Assembly: GCA_016188625.1 (NCBI GenBank)
Contig: JACPHL010000103.1
Coordinates: 1 to 8,202 of the forward strand
Reading direction: 5' to 3'
DNA: 8,202 nucleotides
Source: Candidatus Rokuibacteriota bacterium
GTDB taxonomy: Bacteria; Methylomirabilota; Methylomirabilia; Rokubacteriales; JACPHL01
In this document: positions 1,056 through 8,202 of the stretch, piece by piece
Position numbering within the stretch: position 1 is the first letter of the stretch
How the letters are laid out: every line of letters begins with the position of its first letter
The notes under the pieces: model-generated
What the model was told of the DNA's origin: nothing
Seen by the model: the letters and a program-made list of their open reading frames with translations, nothing else
The model's database searches: none
Position numbers and translations under genes: made by a program

Positions 1056-4000
1056 ATGGGATCACAAGGACGGTTCACCGCGGGCGGTGAGCCCCCGCGC
1101 CTCCTCTACGACCCGCGCGACGAGCGCGGTGCGTGCGGCGTCGGCTTCGTCGCCGACGTCGGGGGCCAGCGCTCCCACCGGATCGTCCAGCAGGCGATCG
1201 AGGCGGTCATCAACCTCACCCATCGGGGGGCGGTCTCGGCCGACGGCAAGACCGGCGACGGCGCGGGCCTCCTGACCCAGCTCCCCCACCGGTTCTTCTC
1301 GCGCGAGCTCGAGCGCATCGCCGGCCACCCGGTGGCGGACGGGGACCTGGCCGTGGGGGTGGTCTTCTTCCCCCGGGAGCCCCAGGCCCGGCGCCTCTGC
1401 CAGAAGATCGTGGAGGGGAGCCTCATCCGCGCCGACCTCTGGATCCTCGGGTGGCGCGAGGTCCCGATCGATCCGACCGCCCTGGGGGCCAAGGCCCTGG
1501 CGACCCTCCCCGACATCCAGCACGTGCTGATCGCGCGGCCGAGCCCGCTCGGGCCGGCGGAGTTCGAGCGCCGGATCTACCTCGCCCGGAAGGAGATCGA
1601 GCAGCAGGTCCTGGGGGAGGGGATCAAGGAGTTCTCGATCCCGTCCTTCTCGGCGAAGACGGTCGTCTACAAGGGGCTCTTCGTCGCGCCCCAGCTCCCG
1701 CGCTTCTACCGGGACCTGACCGACCCCTGGTTCGAGTCGGCCCTGGCCGTCTTCCACCAGCGCTACTCCACCAATACCTTCCCCACCTGGTTCCTGGCCC
1801 AGCCCTTCCGGATGCTCGCCCACAACGGCGAGATCAACACCCTGAACGCGAACCTGAACTGGACCTACGCCCGCGAGCGCGAGCTCCACTCCTCGGTGTG
1901 GGGCGCGGACGTCGAGCGGCTCCGGCCCCTCATCCTCCCCGACGGCTCCGACTCGGCCATGCTCGACAACGTCCTCGAGGCGCTGGTGCTCTCCGGCCGC
2001 GACATCCGCCACGCCTTCATGATGCTCATCCCCGAGGCCTGGGAGCAGATGCCCGGCATGGACCCGGACCTCAGCGCCTTCTACGAGTTCCACGCCTGCC
2101 TCACCGAGCCCTGGGACGGGCCGGCGTCCATCGCCTTCTCCGACGGGATCGTGGTCGGGGCGACCCTGGACCGGAACGGCCTCCGGCCCGCCCGGTACAC
2201 CCTCACCGAGGACGGGACCCTGATCATGGGCTCCGAGGTGGGGCTCGTTGACCTCGACCCGAGCCGGGTGGTCCGCCGTGGCCGCCTCGGCCCCGGCCAG
2301 ATGAGCGCGGTGGACACCGCGCGGGGGGTCCTGCTCGAGAACGGGGAGATCAAGCGGGAGTTCGCTACCCGCGAGCCGTACGCCAAGTGGCTTACCCGGC
2401 ACCTCGTGCGCCTGGACACCCTCGTGCCGGAGGAGACGAACGGGGCCTCCCCCCTCGACCCGGAACGCCTGCTCCGGCTCCAGACCGCCTTCGGGTACAC
2501 CGAGGAGGAGCTCAAGTACGTCCTCCGGCCGATGGTCGCGGAGAAGAAGGAGCCGGTCTGGTCGATGGGAGATGACACCCCGCTGGCCATCCTCTCGCCC
2601 CGCCCCCGGTTGCTCTACGGCTACTTCAAGCAGAAGTTCGCCCAGGTGACCAATCCGCCCATCGACCCGCTGCGCGAGCAGCTCGTCATGTCGCTCTACG
2701 CCTACCTCGGGCCGCGGCTGTCGTTCCTCGAGGAGTCCGAGTACCAGGCCCTGCTGATCCGGCTCTCGAGCCCGGTCCTGACCGATCAGGAGCTCGAGAC
2801 CCTGCGCGCCCGCTCCGAGTTCCCGGCCGTGACCCTGTCCACCCTCTTCCCCGTCGCCGAGGGGGCGGCGGGGCTCGAGGCGGCCCTCGCGCGCCTGTGC
2901 GAGGAGGCCAGCCGGGCGGTGGACGCCGAGCAGGCGCTGGTGATCCTGTCGGATCGCGGGGTGGACGCGGCCCACGCGGCCGTCCCGATCCTGATGGCGA
3001 CGGGCGCCGTCCACCACCACCTCATCCGGCACGGCAAGCGGATGAAGGTGAGCCTCCTGGTGGAGACGGCCGAGGCCTGGGAGGTCCACCACCTGGCCTG
3101 CCTGGTCGGCTACGGCGCCTCCGCCGTGAACCCCTATCTGGCCCTCCAGACCGTCCGGGCCCTCGCCGCGCCGGAGGAGCCGGCGCTGAACCCCGAGCTG
3201 GCGGTCCGGAACTACAAGACCTCGCTCGAGTACGGGATCCGGAAGGCGATGTCGAAGATGGGGATCTCGACGATGGCCAGCTACCACGGGGCCCAGATCT
3301 TCGAGGTCGTCGGCCTCGACGGGTCGCTGGTGGAGCGGTGCTTCCTGGGGACCGCGTCCAAGGTCGGGGGGATCGGGGTGCCCGGGGTCGCCGAGGAGGT
3401 CCTGGCCCGCCACCGCGAGGCCTTCGGCGAGGCCCGCTCCAGGCTGGCCGACGCGGGCTTCTACCGGTTCCGGAAGGGCGGGGAGCCCCATGCCTTCCAC
3501 CCCAACGTGGTCAAGGCCCTCCACGCCGCGGTCAAGAGTGGGGCTTACGAGGACTACAAGCGGTACGCCGAGCTGGTCAACACGCGGGAGCCGCTCGCCA
3601 TCCGGGATCTCCTCGCCTTCCGCTCCGACCGACCCCCCGTCCCGGTGGAGGAGGTCGAGCCGGTCGAGGCGCTTGTCCGGCGCTTCTCGACCCAGGCCAT
3701 GTCGATCGGCGCCCTCGGCCCGGAGGCCCATAAGACGCTGGCCACGGCGATGAACCGCCTCGGGGCCAAGTCTAACACCGGCGAGGGCGGCGAGGACCCG
3801 GAGTGGTGGCACCCGCTTCCGAACGGCGACCTGGCCGCCTCGAAGATCAAGCAGGTCGCCTCGGCGCGCTTCGGCGTGACCCCCGAGTACCTGATCCGGG
3901 CCGAGCAGCTCGAGATCAAGATGGCCCAGGGCAGTAAGCCCGGGGAGGGCGGGCAGCTCCCCGGCCACAAGGTCGCCCCCCACATCGCCAAGATCCGCCG

Positions 4001-5594
4001 GGCCGTGCCGGGGATCCCCCTGATCTCGCCGCCGCCCCACCACGACATCTACTCCATCGAGGACCTGGCGCAGCTCATCTACGACCTGAAGCAGGTCAAC
4101 CCCCGGGCCAAGGTCGGCGTCAAGCTCGTGGCCGAGGCCGGGGTGGGGACCATCGCGGCGGGTGTGGCCAAGGGGTACGCCGACGTCATCCTCATCTCGG
4201 GGCACGAGGGCGGGACCGGGGCCTCGCCGATCAGCTCCATCAAGAACGCCGGGAGCCCCTGGGAGCTCGGGCTCGCGGAGACCCAGCAGGTGCTGGTCCT
4301 CAATGACCTTCGGGGGCGGGTGACCCTCCGGGTGGACGGCGGGATGAAGACCGGCCGGGACGTGATGATCGCGGCGTGCCTCGGGGCCGAGGAGTTCGGC
4401 TTCGGGTCCGCCTCGGTGGTGGCGATCGGGTGCGTCATGGCCCGGCAGTGCCACCTCAACACCTGCCCGGTCGGGATCGCCACCCAGCGGCCGGAGCTCC
4501 GCGCGAAGTTCGCGGGGCGGCCCGAGATGGCCATCCACTTCTTCACCCACATCGCCCAGGAGGTCCGGGAGCTCCTGGCCGCGCTCGGCTACCGCCGGCT
4601 CGACGAGGTCGTGGGGCGGACCGACCTCCTCGCCTCTGCCACGGGCGTCGGGCACGGGAAGGCCCGGGCCCTCGACCTCTCCCGGGTCCTGGCCCAGGCC
4701 GATCCCACGGGGACCCTCCCCCGCCGCGCCCTCCAGGAGCGGAACGATCGCCCTCCCGATCCCCGCGACCTCGACCTGGTCGCCGAGGTCCTTCCCGCCC
4801 TCGAGGGCCGCGGGCCGGTGCGCCGGACCTTCCCCATCCGCAACATCCACCGGACGGTGGGCGCCCGCCTGGCCGGGGAGATCGCCCGCCGCCACGGCGA
4901 TCGAGGACTCCCGGAGGGCACGGTGGAGCTCCGCTTCCAGGGGAGCGCCGGGCAGAGCTTCGGGGCCTTTTGCGTAGCCGGGATGCGCCTCGTCCTCGAG
5001 GGGGAGGCCAACGACTACGCCGGCAAGGGGATGGGGGGCGGTGAGATCGTGATCGCGCCGCCGCGCCGGGCGCGCTTCGCCTCGCACGAGAACGTCATCG
5101 TCGGCAACACCGTCCTCTACGGCGCCACCGGGGGCGCGATGTTCGTGGCCGGCCGGGCCGGCGAGCGCTTCGCGGTCCGGAACTCCGGCGCCACGGCGGT
5201 CGTCGAGGGGGTCGGAGATCACGGCTGCGAATACATGACCGCCGGCGTGGTGGCGGTCCTGGGGGCGACGGGCCGGAACTTCGGCGCCGGGATGACCAAC
5301 GGGGCCGCCTACGTCCTCGACGAGGGCGATGAGTTCCCGGCCCGCTACAATCCCGAGCTGGTCCGGATCGCCCGGATCGAGGCGCCGGAGGACGCCCAGG
5401 AGCTCCGGGCCCTCGTCGAGCGCCACCTCGCGCTGACCGGGAGCCGGCGCGCCGCCGAGCTCCTCGGCCGCTGGGAGGCATTCCTTCCCCGCTTCTTCAA
5501 GGTGATCCCGCTCCCCGCCGAGGCGATCGCCAAGACCATCGAGGTGGCCAAGCGCGGCACCGAAGCGGCCACCCCGGTCCCGGTCGGCCGCTGA
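1056..5594 (+). CDS. gltB: Glutamate synthase (GOGAT) large/alpha subunit
   Basis: GltB converts L-glutamine and 2-oxoglutarate to two L-glutamates, with reductant delivered through FMN and a 3Fe-4S cluster; it is cytoplasmic. The length of 1512 aa fits the family (E. coli about 1490). An in-frame TGA ends directly before the ATG at 1056, so this is the longest possible start. No clear Shine-Dalgarno precedes it. Cleavage of a 26-residue propeptide would expose the glutaminase nucleophile C27 (YDPRDERGACGVGF). The class-II glutamine amidotransferase domain runs to about residue 430, with HQRYSTN (234-240) and HNGEIN (256-261). A central domain (about 480-770) is followed by the FMN synthase domain (about 815-1200), which has GEGGED (909-914), PPPHHDIYSIEDLAQL and GHEGGTGASP. 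The 3Fe-4S cysteines are C1126-x5-C1132-x4-C1137. The C-terminal GXGXG beta-helix domain spans about 1240-1430. The PE gene lies 65 nt upstream and the M24 peptidase 25 nt downstream. No gltD is adjacent. The 991-1055 gap shows no convincing promoter or terminator. Confidence 0.97.
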   Translation: MGSQGRFTAGGEPPRLLYDPRDERGACGVGFVADVGGQRSHRIVQQAIEAVINLTHRGAVSADGKTGDGAGLLTQLPHRFFSRELERIAGHPVADGDLAVGVVFFPREPQARRLCQKIVEGSLIRADLWILGWREVPIDPTALGAKALATLPDIQHVLIARPSPLGPAEFERRIYLARKEIEQQVLGEGIKEFSIPSFSAKTVVYKGLFVAPQLPRFYRDLTDPWFESALAVFHQRYSTNTFPTWFLAQPFRMLAHNGEINTLNANLNWTYARERELHSSVWGADVERLRPLILPDGSDSAMLDNVLEALVLSGRDIRHAFMMLIPEAWEQMPGMDPDLSAFYEFHACLTEPWDGPASIAFSDGIVVGATLDRNGLRPARYTLTEDGTLIMGSEVGLVDLDPSRVVRRGRLGPGQMSAVDTARGVLLENGEIKREFATREPYAKWLTRHLVRLDTLVPEETNGASPLDPERLLRLQTAFGYTEEELKYVLRPMVAEKKEPVWSMGDDTPLAILSPRPRLLYGYFKQKFAQVTNPPIDPLREQLVMSLYAYLGPRLSFLEESEYQALLIRLSSPVLTDQELETLRARSEFPAVTLSTLFPVAEGAAGLEAALARLCEEASRAVDAEQALVILSDRGVDAAHAAVPILMATGAVHHHLIRHGKRMKVSLLVETAEAWEVHHLACLVGYGASAVNPYLALQTVRALAAPEEPALNPELAVRNYKTSLEYGIRKAMSKMGISTMASYHGAQIFEVVGLDGSLVERCFLGTASKVGGIGVPGVAEEVLARHREAFGEARSRLADAGFYRFRKGGEPHAFHPNVVKALHAAVKSGAYEDYKRYAELVNTREPLAIRDLLAFRSDRPPVPVEEVEPVEALVRRFSTQAMSIGALGPEAHKTLATAMNRLGAKSNTGEGGEDPEWWHPLPNGDLAASKIKQVASARFGVTPEYLIRAEQLEIKMAQGSKPGEGGQLPGHKVAPHIAKIRRAVPGIPLISPPPHHDIYSIEDLAQLIYDLKQVNPRAKVGVKLVAEAGVGTIAAGVAKGYADVILISGHEGGTGASPISSIKNAGSPWELGLAETQQVLVLNDLRGRVTLRVDGGMKTGRDVMIAACLGAEEFGFGSASVVAIGCVMARQCHLNTCPVGIATQRPELRAKFAGRPEMAIHFFTHIAQEVRELLAALGYRRLDEVVGRTDLLASATGVGHGKARALDLSRVLAQADPTGTLPRRALQERNDRPPDPRDLDLVAEVLPALEGRGPVRRTFPIRNIHRTVGARLAGEIARRHGDRGLPEGTVELRFQGSAGQSFGAFCVAGMRLVLEGEANDYAGKGMGGGEIVIAPPRRARFASHENVIVGNTVLYGATGGAMFVAGRAGERFAVRNSGATAVVEGVGDHGCEYMTAGVVAVLGATGRNFGAGMTNGAAYVLDEGDEFPARYNPELVRIARIEAPEDAQELRALVERHLALTGSRRAAELLGRWEAFLPRFFKVIPLPAEAIAKTIEVAKRGTEAATPVPVGR

Positions 5595-5619: not shown

Positions 5620-6792
5620 ATGAACGCCGAGCCCTCGCCCCAGGCTTGCCCCGAGAGCCGGGACGCCGGCGAGCGGGGGCCCGCCATCCTGATGATCGCC
5701 GCCAGCGAGGCGGACGCGAACCTCTACTACGCCACCCGCTTCCTCGCCCCCGACCCCTTCGTCTTCCTGGAGGTGGACGGCCGGAAGCTCCTCGTGATGA
5801 GCGATCTCGAGCTGGACCGGGCCAAGGCCGAGGCCAGGGTCGATGAGGTCCTACTCCTCTCCGCCTACGAGGCCAAGGCCCGCCAGCGGTGGGCGACCCC
5901 CCACCTGATCGACATCCTCGGCCTCGTCCTGGACGAGCACGGCGTCCGGGACCTCCTGGTCCCGGCCGGGTTCGCCCTCGAGCATGCCGACCGGCTCCGG
6001 GAGAAGGGGTACCGGGTGACCTGGCGTCCCGACCCGTTCTTCGAGGCGCGCCTCATCAAGTCCGAGGAGGAGGTCGCCGCCATCGAGGCCACCCAGCGGG
6101 CGACCGAGCGGGCGGTGGCGCGGGCCCGGGAGGTCCTGCAGGCGAGCGAGATCCGCGGGGACGCCTTGTACTGGGAGGGGAGGGTCCTGACCGCTGAGAC
6201 CCTCCGGCAGGTCATCCACCTCGCCCTCCTCGAGGAGGACTGCCTCGGCCAGCACACCATCGTCGCGCCCGGGGTCCAGGGGTGCGATCCCCACCACCGC
6301 GGCGCGGGCCCGATCCGTCCCCACGAGTCCCTGGTCCTCGACGTCTTCCCCCGCTCGAGTCGGACCCGCTACTTCGCGGACATGACCCGCACCGTGGTCC
6401 GCGGGAAGGCCTCCGACGGCCTCCGCCGGATGCACGAGGCGGTCCTGGCGGCCCAGCTCCAGGCCATCGGGCTGATCGCCGACGGGGTGGCCGGCGACGA
6501 GGTCCACCGGGAGGTGGGGGCCGTGCTCCGGCGCGCCGGCTTCGAGACCGGGATGGTGGAGGGGCGGATGCAGGGGTTCTTCCACGGGACCGGTCACGGC
6601 CTCGGCCTCGACATCCACGAGCCCCCCCGGATCGGGAAGGCCAAGGCGACCCTCCGGGCCGGGCAGGTGGTGACCGTGGAGCCCGGTCTCTACTACCCCC
6701 GCTGGGGGGCCGTTCGGATCGAGGATCTCGTGGTCGTGGAGGCCGGGGGGTGCCGCAACCTCACCCGCTTCCCGAAGACCCTGGAGCTGTGA
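5620..6792 (+). CDS. M24-family metallopeptidase (aminopeptidase P / prolidase type)
   Basis: This is a probable cytoplasmic dinuclear-metal peptidase that cleaves Xaa-Pro bonds; the exact substrate (tripeptide or dipeptide) cannot be told from sequence. It has 390 aa. Residues about 25-150 form a creatinase-like N-terminal domain (ASEADANLYYATRFLAPDPF). The pita-bread catalytic domain follows. The five expected metal ligands are D241 (LDVFP), D254 (FADMT), H326 (HGTGHGLG), E354 (VEPGLYY) and E368 (RIEDL). Supporting active-site histidines are H225/H226 (DPHHRG), H322 and H333 (DIHEPP). The two Asp ligands are 13 residues apart, against 11 in E. coli aminopeptidase P, so the hairpin between them is two residues longer. 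There is no signal peptide or membrane segment. Two starts are possible. The ATG at 5620 follows GGCGGGA. The ATG at 5692 (residue 25) fits the usual family start better and is preceded by GCGGGGGC. The gene is 25 nt after gltB and probably cotranscribed. No U-rich terminator follows its stop. Confidence 0.92.
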   Translation: MNAEPSPQACPESRDAGERGPAILMIAASEADANLYYATRFLAPDPFVFLEVDGRKLLVMSDLELDRAKAEARVDEVLLLSAYEAKARQRWATPHLIDILGLVLDEHGVRDLLVPAGFALEHADRLREKGYRVTWRPDPFFEARLIKSEEEVAAIEATQRATERAVARAREVLQASEIRGDALYWEGRVLTAETLRQVIHLALLEEDCLGQHTIVAPGVQGCDPHHRGAGPIRPHESLVLDVFPRSSRTRYFADMTRTVVRGKASDGLRRMHEAVLAAQLQAIGLIADGVAGDEVHREVGAVLRRAGFETGMVEGRMQGFFHGTGHGLGLDIHEPPRIGKAKATLRAGQVVTVEPGLYYPRWGAVRIEDLVVVEAGGCRNLTRFPKTLEL

Positions 6793-6803
6793 GGAGACGC
6801 ACG

Positions 6804-6824
6804 GTCTGAGGTCTGACCTCTGAT
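6804..6824. repeat. Three near-identical tandem heptamers
   Basis: GTCTGAG, GTCTGAC and CTCTGAT follow each other without gaps just after the M24 stop codon. Within them GAGGT (6808-6812) and ACCTC (6816-6820) form a 5-bp inverted repeat around CTG. The tract looks like a fragment of an intergenic dispersed repeat, but only one copy is in the window. Terminator activity is unlikely: the stem is short and is followed by TGATTTCC rather than a T-run. Confidence 0.4.
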
Positions 6825-6829
6825 TTCCT

Positions 6830-6857
6830 TTGCACTCCCGGGAATCTCGGGTACACT
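6830..6857 (+). promoter_or_regulatory. Candidate sigma70-type promoter for korA
   Basis: TTGCAC (6830-6835) and TACACT (6852-6857) are separated by 16 nt and lie in the most A/T-rich stretch of the intergenic region. The -10 hexamer matches TATAAT at four of six positions; the -35 keeps TTG. Transcription would begin near G6864, exactly the first base of the P1 helix of the downstream leader, which supports the assignment. The spacer holds an imperfect palindrome (CCCG at 6837-6840, CGGG at 6848-6851) that could be an operator. Confidence 0.55.
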
Positions 6858-6863
6858 CCGTTG

Positions 6864-7000
6864 GGAGTGGCCGAGTGATCGGCCGGCTGCCCGAGCGCAC
6901 GATCCTTCGTGCGCTCGGCCTGTGCTGAGGGGTTTCTGGCCGGCCGCCACTCCTCCGAGGCTATGGGGGCGCCCACCCGGCGTCGAACCTGTCGCCTCGG
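6864..7000 (+). ncRNA. Structured 5' leader of korA, candidate cis-regulatory RNA of unrecognised class
   Basis: Four helices can be read directly. P1 pairs 6864-6871 with 6946-6953 (8 bp). P2 pairs 6881-6887 with 6939-6945 (7 bp) and stacks on the 3' side of P1, leaving 6872-6880 as a 9-nt bulge on the 5' side. P3 is a perfect 12-bp hairpin, 6891-6902 with 6907-6918, capped by the loop TCCT (6903-6906). A purine-rich single strand of about 19 nt (6919-6937) remains inside P2. P4 pairs 6955-6961 with 6994-7000 (7 bp) and may contain a 4-bp hairpin (6964-6967 with 6972-6975). The korA Shine-Dalgarno follows P4 by about 13 nt. All pairs in P1-P4 are Watson-Crick. No U-tract follows P3, so an intrinsic terminator is unlikely. 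I compared it from memory with TPP, cobalamin, glutamine, SRP and 6S RNAs and with tRNA, and found no match. The structure is seen in the sequence; a regulatory role is inferred. Confidence 0.5.
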
Positions 7001-7013
7001 GGTTCTCACGGGA

Positions 7014-7018
7014 AGGAG
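7014..7018 (+). promoter_or_regulatory. Strong Shine-Dalgarno sequence of korA
   Basis: AGGAG within GGAAGGAGAG (7011-7020) ends 5 nt before the ATG at 7024. It is the clearest ribosome binding site in the window and fixes the korA start. CTCCT (6950-6954, partly the 3' strand of P1) and TCCTTC (6903-6908, starting in the P3 loop) are both complementary to it, so access may depend on leader folding. Confidence 0.85.
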
Positions 7019-7023
7019 AGTAG

Positions 7024-8202
7024 ATGCGCAACACGGTCGTCACCGAGTCGTCCGTCCGGAAGCCGCGGCGCTCGCTCGACAGGGCCGTGGTCCGCTTCGC
7101 CGGCGACTCGGGTGACGGGATGCAGCTGACCGGCGAGCAGTTCACCACCGAGTCGGCCTGGGCCGGCAACGACCTCGCGACCCTGCCCAACTTCCCCGCC
7201 GAGATCCGCGCGCCCGCCGGGACCCTGTTCGGGGTCTCGAGCTTCCAGCTCCAGTTCGGCAGCCGGCGCGTGTACACGCCGGGGGACCGCCTGGACTGCC
7301 TCGTGGCCATGAACCCGGCGGCCCTCAAGGTCCACCTCGGCGACCTCAAGGAGGGCGGGCTCCTCATCCTGAACCCCAACGCCTTCGACCAGAAGAACCT
7401 GGATCGGGCGGGCTACGCGGCGAACCCCCTGGACGACCCGACCCTCGCCGAGCGGTACCGGCTCCACAAGGTGGAGATCTCCCGGCTCACCCGGGATGCC
7501 CTCGAGGACCTGCCGCTCAACGCCAGGGAGAAGGAGCGCTCCAAGAACTTCTTCGCCCTGGGGCTCGTCTCCTGGATCTACACGCGGCCGATCCAGCCCA
7601 CCCTGGACTGGATTGCCAGGCGGTTCGCCAAGCACCCGGCCCTGGCGGACGCCAACACCCGGGCCCTCAAGGCCGGCTACCACTTCGGGGAGACCGCCGA
7701 GATCTTCACCGAGTGCTACGGGGTCGAGCCGGCCAAGATGCCGCCGGGCCTCTACCGGAGCATGACCGGCAACCGGGCGCTGGCCTGGGGCCTCCTGGCG
7801 GCGGCCGAGCGGGCGGGGCTCCCCATGGTCTACGGCGCCTACCCCATCACCCCGGCCAGCGACATCCTCCACGAGCTCTCGCTGCACAAGCGCTTCCGGG
7901 TCCGGACCATCCAGGCGGAGGACGAGATCGCCGCCGTCTGCGCCATCATCGGCGCCGCCTTCGGCGGGGCCCTGGGCATCGCGGCGACGAGCGGCCCGGG
8001 GCTGGCGCTCAAGGCCGAGGGGATCGCCCTGGCGGTCATGGCGGAGCTGCCCATCGTCGTCTTCGACATCCAGCGGGGCGGGCCGAGCACCGGCCTCCCG
8101 ACCAAGACCGAGCAGGGCGACCTGCTGCAGGCCCTGTACGGCCGCAACAGCGAGTGCCCGGTGGTCGTCCTGTCGCCCGCGACGCCCGGCGACTGCTTCT
8201 AC
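7024..8202 (+). CDS. korA: 2-oxoglutarate:ferredoxin oxidoreductase alpha subunit (fused gamma-alpha type), 3' truncated by window edge
   Basis: The frame is open to the last base, giving 393 codons of a family that usually has about 600. The enzyme interconverts 2-oxoglutarate + CoA + oxidised ferredoxin and succinyl-CoA + CO2 + reduced ferredoxin, together with a ThDP-binding beta subunit expected downstream. Residues about 20-210 are the gamma domain, with [14 protein letters not shown] (27-40) and the Kor-typical [20 protein letters not shown] block. The alpha (pyrimidine-binding) domain starts near residue 245: YPITPAS (273-279), QAEDE (297-301), ATSGPG (321-326) and a [17 protein letters not shown] block. 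This gamma-alpha order separates it from four-subunit enzymes. Related 2-oxoacid:ferredoxin oxidoreductases share the architecture, so the 2-oxoglutarate preference is probable rather than proven. ATG 7024 is set by a strong Shine-Dalgarno 5 nt upstream. The gene lies 231 nt after the M24 gene with its own candidate promoter and structured leader, so it probably begins a new transcription unit. Confidence 0.93.

Follow-up and report, generated by a model that had tools for sequence, protein, structure and literature searches.

A stable nested-helix element at the head of the predicted korA leader in a Rokubacteriales genome: constitutive stem, switch or chance fold?

What, if anything, does a strongly folded RNA do at the head of a gene for ferredoxin-dependent 2-oxoacid metabolism? 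The question is raised by positions 6864-6953 of an 8,202-nucleotide stretch of DNA from a member of Candidatus Rokuibacteriota; the whole of that stretch is called the window here. The element lies between an M24 peptidase gene (5620-6792), itself preceded by gltB (1056-5594), and a + strand gene that begins at 7024 and runs off the window at 8202. A preliminary description, made from the letters alone, had seen three nested helices here, placed them at the start of a korA transcript, and taken them for a ligand- or protein-binding leader of a class that it did not recognise. At the far end of the window, upstream of gltB (1-990), a moaA-type molybdenum cofactor gene (Mob_synth_C domain) comes to its end; between it and gltB stands a reading frame that, judged by eye, resembles a LigD-type 3'-phosphoesterase domain.

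The downstream gene carries the Pfam domains POR and POR_N of a korA-type 2-oxoacid:ferredoxin oxidoreductase alpha subunit, and the identity first given to it holds; the best NCBIfam model for the fragment is TIGR03710, at a score under that model's cut-off. After the M24 gene, a pattern scan finds a weak terminator-like hairpin, GAGGTCTGACCTC (6808-6820), with a T-rich tail reaching 6831 on the + strand, a match to consensus only. This is followed by a predicted promoter, TTGCAC-16 nt-TACACT (6830-6857); against a weight matrix built from 41 korA promoters of relatives, no + strand site in the window scores higher. Its score is 4.9, against 15.7-25.1 for the relatives' own promoters, and its 16-nt spacer is sub-optimal. 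At the equivalent position before korA, the relatives carry TTGCC-17-TAAAAT. Same-order genomes supplied 41 distinct korA upstream regions, in which a promoter of the form TTGC-17-TA...T stands ~70-165 nt before korA; in most relatives of that order, a promoter thus occupies the position that corresponds to the window's. From the match in the window we infer a transcription start at ~6863-6865, which would coincide with the first base of the outer helix. As a predicted start, then, the placement of the element at the head of the korA transcript is borne out.

The three helices lie exactly where they were first described. Inverted-repeat search pairs GGAGTGGC (6864-6871) with GCCACTCC (6946-6953) as P1, all eight positions being complementary (8 bp), and CGGCCGGC (6880-6887) with GCCGGCCG (6939-6946) as P2, again with 8/8 complementary. 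Because base 6946, the last of the P2 3' arm, is shared with P1, P2 has 7-8 bp. Within them, P3 (6891-6918) is a perfect 12-bp hairpin with a 4-nt TCCT loop, recovered both as an inverted repeat and by ensemble pairing (arms 6891-6902 and 6907-6918, 12/12 complementary). All pairs in P1-P3 are Watson-Crick, with no G-U. Folded from the predicted start site, P1, P2 and P3 together are the minimum-energy structure, and in the computed ensemble of the leader and first codons their pair probabilities are ~0.85, ~0.94 and ~1.0, respectively. The 90-nt element reaches -57.1 kcal/mol, against -39.6 +/- 3.3 for shuffled sequences (z -5.27; 0 of 200 shuffles as good). When folding is extended from the predicted start towards korA, the leader as a whole has a z between -2.8 and -3.6, depending on the exact ends. 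The opposite strand of the element folds equally well (z -5.1). Since the other strand is as stable, and since only Watson-Crick pairs occur, the fold does not demonstrate selection on + strand RNA as opposed to selection on DNA, or on neither.

Stepwise folding adds a competitor. An early hairpin, A (6863-6892, + strand; core GGCCGA-GTGA-TCGGCC; z -3.15), is exclusive with P1 and P2. It forms first and yields to P1/P2 once 6939-6953 have been transcribed, and the folding model favours P1/P2 by a wide margin. The two segments thought to be single-stranded are so only in part. CGAGTGATC (6872-6880) is not simply unpaired, falling within the core of the competing hairpin (6869-6884), and the best fold pulls part of the purine-rich GCTGAGGGG (6924-6932) into a weak mini-helix. 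The exchange between A and P1/P2 is, in the model, the sole switch-like feature of the leader.

Inverted-repeat and folding analyses place a second leader hairpin, P4, at 6955-7000 (arms CCGAGGC/GCCTCGG), and ensemble pairing outlines the ribosome-binding region at 7003-7020. The AGGAGAG of korA (7014-7020) would, by this prediction, be masked by local pairing with TTCTC (~7003-7007) in a small hairpin, whether P1 is formed or not. When the 5' arm of P1 is blocked in ensemble folding, the pairing of P4 and of the ribosome site is essentially unchanged, and therefore no switch output is visible. An anti-Shine-Dalgarno role for the CTCCT of the P1 3' arm was considered and dropped; its pairing with AGGAG is absent when P1 is blocked. 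A pattern scan finds no U-tract intrinsic terminator inside the leader, and folding together with that scan finds no expression platform there, in which a sensing helix would preclude a terminator or a ribosome-site helix.

Because P4 and the ribosome site are indifferent to the blocking of P1, and because no terminator follows, we prefer to regard the element as a lineage-specific, very stable and constitutive 5'-terminal stem in the untranslated leader of korA, one that possibly stabilises the mRNA; we put the probability of this reading at roughly 0.4. Were transcription to start at ~6863, the message would begin inside P1. Hairpin A would form first, then P3; once 6939-6953 had been made, P2 and P1 would close and enclose the 5' end in an almost unbroken, GC-rich stem. 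This stem might then shield the 5' end constitutively from 5'-end-dependent decay, and so lengthen the life of the message, in the manner of the ompA leader. Ligand-controlled switching by the element is probably not the mechanism.

Leaders of the ompA type carry 5'-terminal stem-loops that stabilise their mRNA. Like these, the predicted korA stem is stable, lies at or within a few nucleotides of a predicted 5' end, and belongs to a protein-coding message. Unlike them, it is much longer, is built in three parts, and is GC-rich; a relation in sequence to them is not expected. The constitutive stem is supported by helices that dominate the leader ensemble and beat their shuffles, by a P1 that begins at the predicted +1 of a positionally shared promoter, by the absence of homologues, of an Rfam match and of further copies in the searches made, and by the modest +1 hairpins that many relatives' korA leaders can form. 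Against it stand the 16-nt spacer and the promoter score well below those of the relatives, the equal stability of the other strand with Watson-Crick pairs throughout, and about a dozen equal folds in 303 kb of the same genome.

How unusual, then, is such a fold at home? The background was 303 kb of the same genome (84% complete; G+C 66% in the sampled part), folded on both strands as 37,026 segments of 90 nt. At least as stable as -57.1 kcal/mol are 121 of them (0.33%); 289 have a minimum energy of -55 or below, and 16 of these, at about a dozen places, also have z <= -5. In this sample, comparable folds occur about once per 25 kb, which would extrapolate to perhaps about a hundred in the whole genome. 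Perfect hairpins of at least 12 bp with a loop of 3-8 nt number two in the 303 kb, P3 included. The element exceeds local chance, yet it is not unique in its genome. The second such hairpin (L179:765-791, TCAGAGGGGGGC AGC GCCCCCCTCTGA) lies between reading frames, has no U tract, and is possibly a U-less terminator type of the window's lineage. Exact and three-mismatch searches of the 84%-complete genome return no further copy of P3. It is single-copy, and the scattered repeat family that the preliminary description had raised against itself did not appear.

The comparison with relatives is less kind. It covered 58 genomes of the same order, none from the window's own family. Conservation among homologues (compare PMC8250186) was looked for in these 58 and was not found: none has a homologous leader that could be aligned for covariation, and P3 is absent from all of them within 3 mismatches, the korA promoters included. 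BLAST searches with the leader in 95 genomes of the class give their best matches in the korA coding part, the remainder being short fragments at chance level. In the two nearest families (G003, G002), korA follows another reading frame so closely that a leader has no space, while the main family, f2, has korA leaders without the element. Thus, the proposal of a conserved ligand- or protein-binding leader finds no support within this set. The remark that the class was unfamiliar does: Rfam 15 has no family at gathering score and nothing credible at E <= 5. Among the papers searched, none mentions Rokubacteria together with a riboswitch.

The relatives' korA leaders are not exceptionally folded, their mean full-leader z being 0.01, against -3.6 for the window's leader. 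In many, a modest hairpin of other sequence is possible at +1 (the first 46 nt average a z of -0.5, the segment after them +0.55). The korA leaders of genus g11 (L133, L135, L136, L137) show a nested two-helix arrangement at their own start site, GTAGCGGCYCC/GGGGCCGCTCTGC enclosing CTGGA/TCCAG. These are unrelated in sequence to the window, come from one genus, and follow an upstream gene that ends like the window's M24 peptidase.

The f2 leaders are themselves conserved in sequence. In L031:1353-1441, L010:1371-1458, L018:1369-1455 and 25 further leaders (alignment A2, model R1), the promoter TTGCC-17-TAAAAT is followed by four blocks whose spacing hardly varies: GGTCTGCC, which sits at the start site, then CCTCWG, ~44 nt past the -10 box, ATTCCCG, 12 nt further, and GTGTGCG. 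The covariance model R1 finds strong matches only upstream of korA, once per genome and in many genera. Six of its weaker matches away from korA fall in or around unrelated reading frames, without the full core motif. The f2 leader has no Rfam match. Its own candidate P1 (69.7% of cells paired) is not claimed as a covarying helix: its covariation score was reached by 29 of 500 shuffles of the structure-fitted alignment and by 98 of 500 of the unfitted one, and RNAalifold predicts no pairs in these leaders. Because covariation is weak, the f2 leader may act as RNA or as DNA; it could be an RNA element, or it could be a set of tandem protein-binding sites.

Set beside the f2 leader, the window's leader precedes the same gene and likewise stands directly after a TTGC...TA promoter. 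It lacks GGTCTGCC, CCTCWG, ATTCCCG and GTGTGCG, and it folds strongly where the f2 leader does not. R1, run over 6780-7023 with filters off, gives no match at E <= 10, and the profile HMM likewise gives none. The reverse complement of the GATTCCCG block does occur in the window's promoter spacer (CGGGAATC, 6839-6846); since chance alone would put 0.6 copies into the window, it was disregarded.

Ranking closely behind the constitutive stem is the view that the element does nothing at all, being a GC-rich quasi-palindrome that arose in the lineage by chance or by template switching and happens to fall in the korA leader. This is a serious possibility, if a somewhat less probable one. It sits well with absence from all same-order genomes compared, with comparable folds at every ~25 kb, with a G+C of 66%, and with two strands that fold equally without G-U pairs. 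It sits less well with a z of -5.3, with the rarity of perfect 12-bp hairpins (two in 303 kb, this one counted), and with a P1 whose first base falls on the predicted +1. It appears unlikely that the element is a riboswitch or protein-binding RNA in which the exchange between A and P1/P2 would couple korA to 2-oxoglutarate, redox state or some related signal. Regulation at this leader is plausible in itself, because other Rokubacteria have a korA-specific conserved leader, and the window does offer two mutually exclusive 5'-end folds, A early and P1/P2 later. With known leaders of this kind the element shares its position between promoter and start codon, its nested helices, its asymmetric internal loops and its competing early hairpin. 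It differs from them in lacking a conserved core, phylogenetic covariation, a recognisable expression platform and an Rfam match; moreover, the model strongly favours P1/P2, the ribosome site ignores the blocking of P1, and the leader has no U-tract terminator.

The same letters might, of course, act as DNA. Positions 6891-6918 form a perfect 28-bp palindrome just downstream of the predicted start site, its strands equivalent and free of any G-U-type asymmetry, as would suit the operator of a dimeric transcription factor. Such an operator is improbable: the site occurs once in the genome, is absent from the korA promoters of relatives, and would leave P1 and P2 unexplained. Slightly more doubtful still is the suggestion that regulation in the Rokubacteriales has a hot spot in the korA leader, where the window's lineage would have swapped an f2-type leader for an unrelated bistable RNA (A versus P1/P2/P3) sensing a 2-oxoacid or redox state. 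Least probable of all is a mobile or dispersed palindromic repeat, REP- or MITE-like, inserted upstream of korA; the nested inverted repeats and the terminal arms recall one, against which stand the single copy in the genome and its absence from relatives.

For now, therefore, the element is best treated as an ordinary lineage-specific structured leader, not as a new riboswitch. Its present use is as a negative result: a single sequence in G+C-rich DNA folds strikingly and yet fails comparative tests. The korA-specific conserved leader of f2 is the better candidate. Were the window's element regulatory, an uncultured soil lineage would have, at this place, control through RNA of a ferredoxin-dependent 2-oxoacid oxidoreductase.
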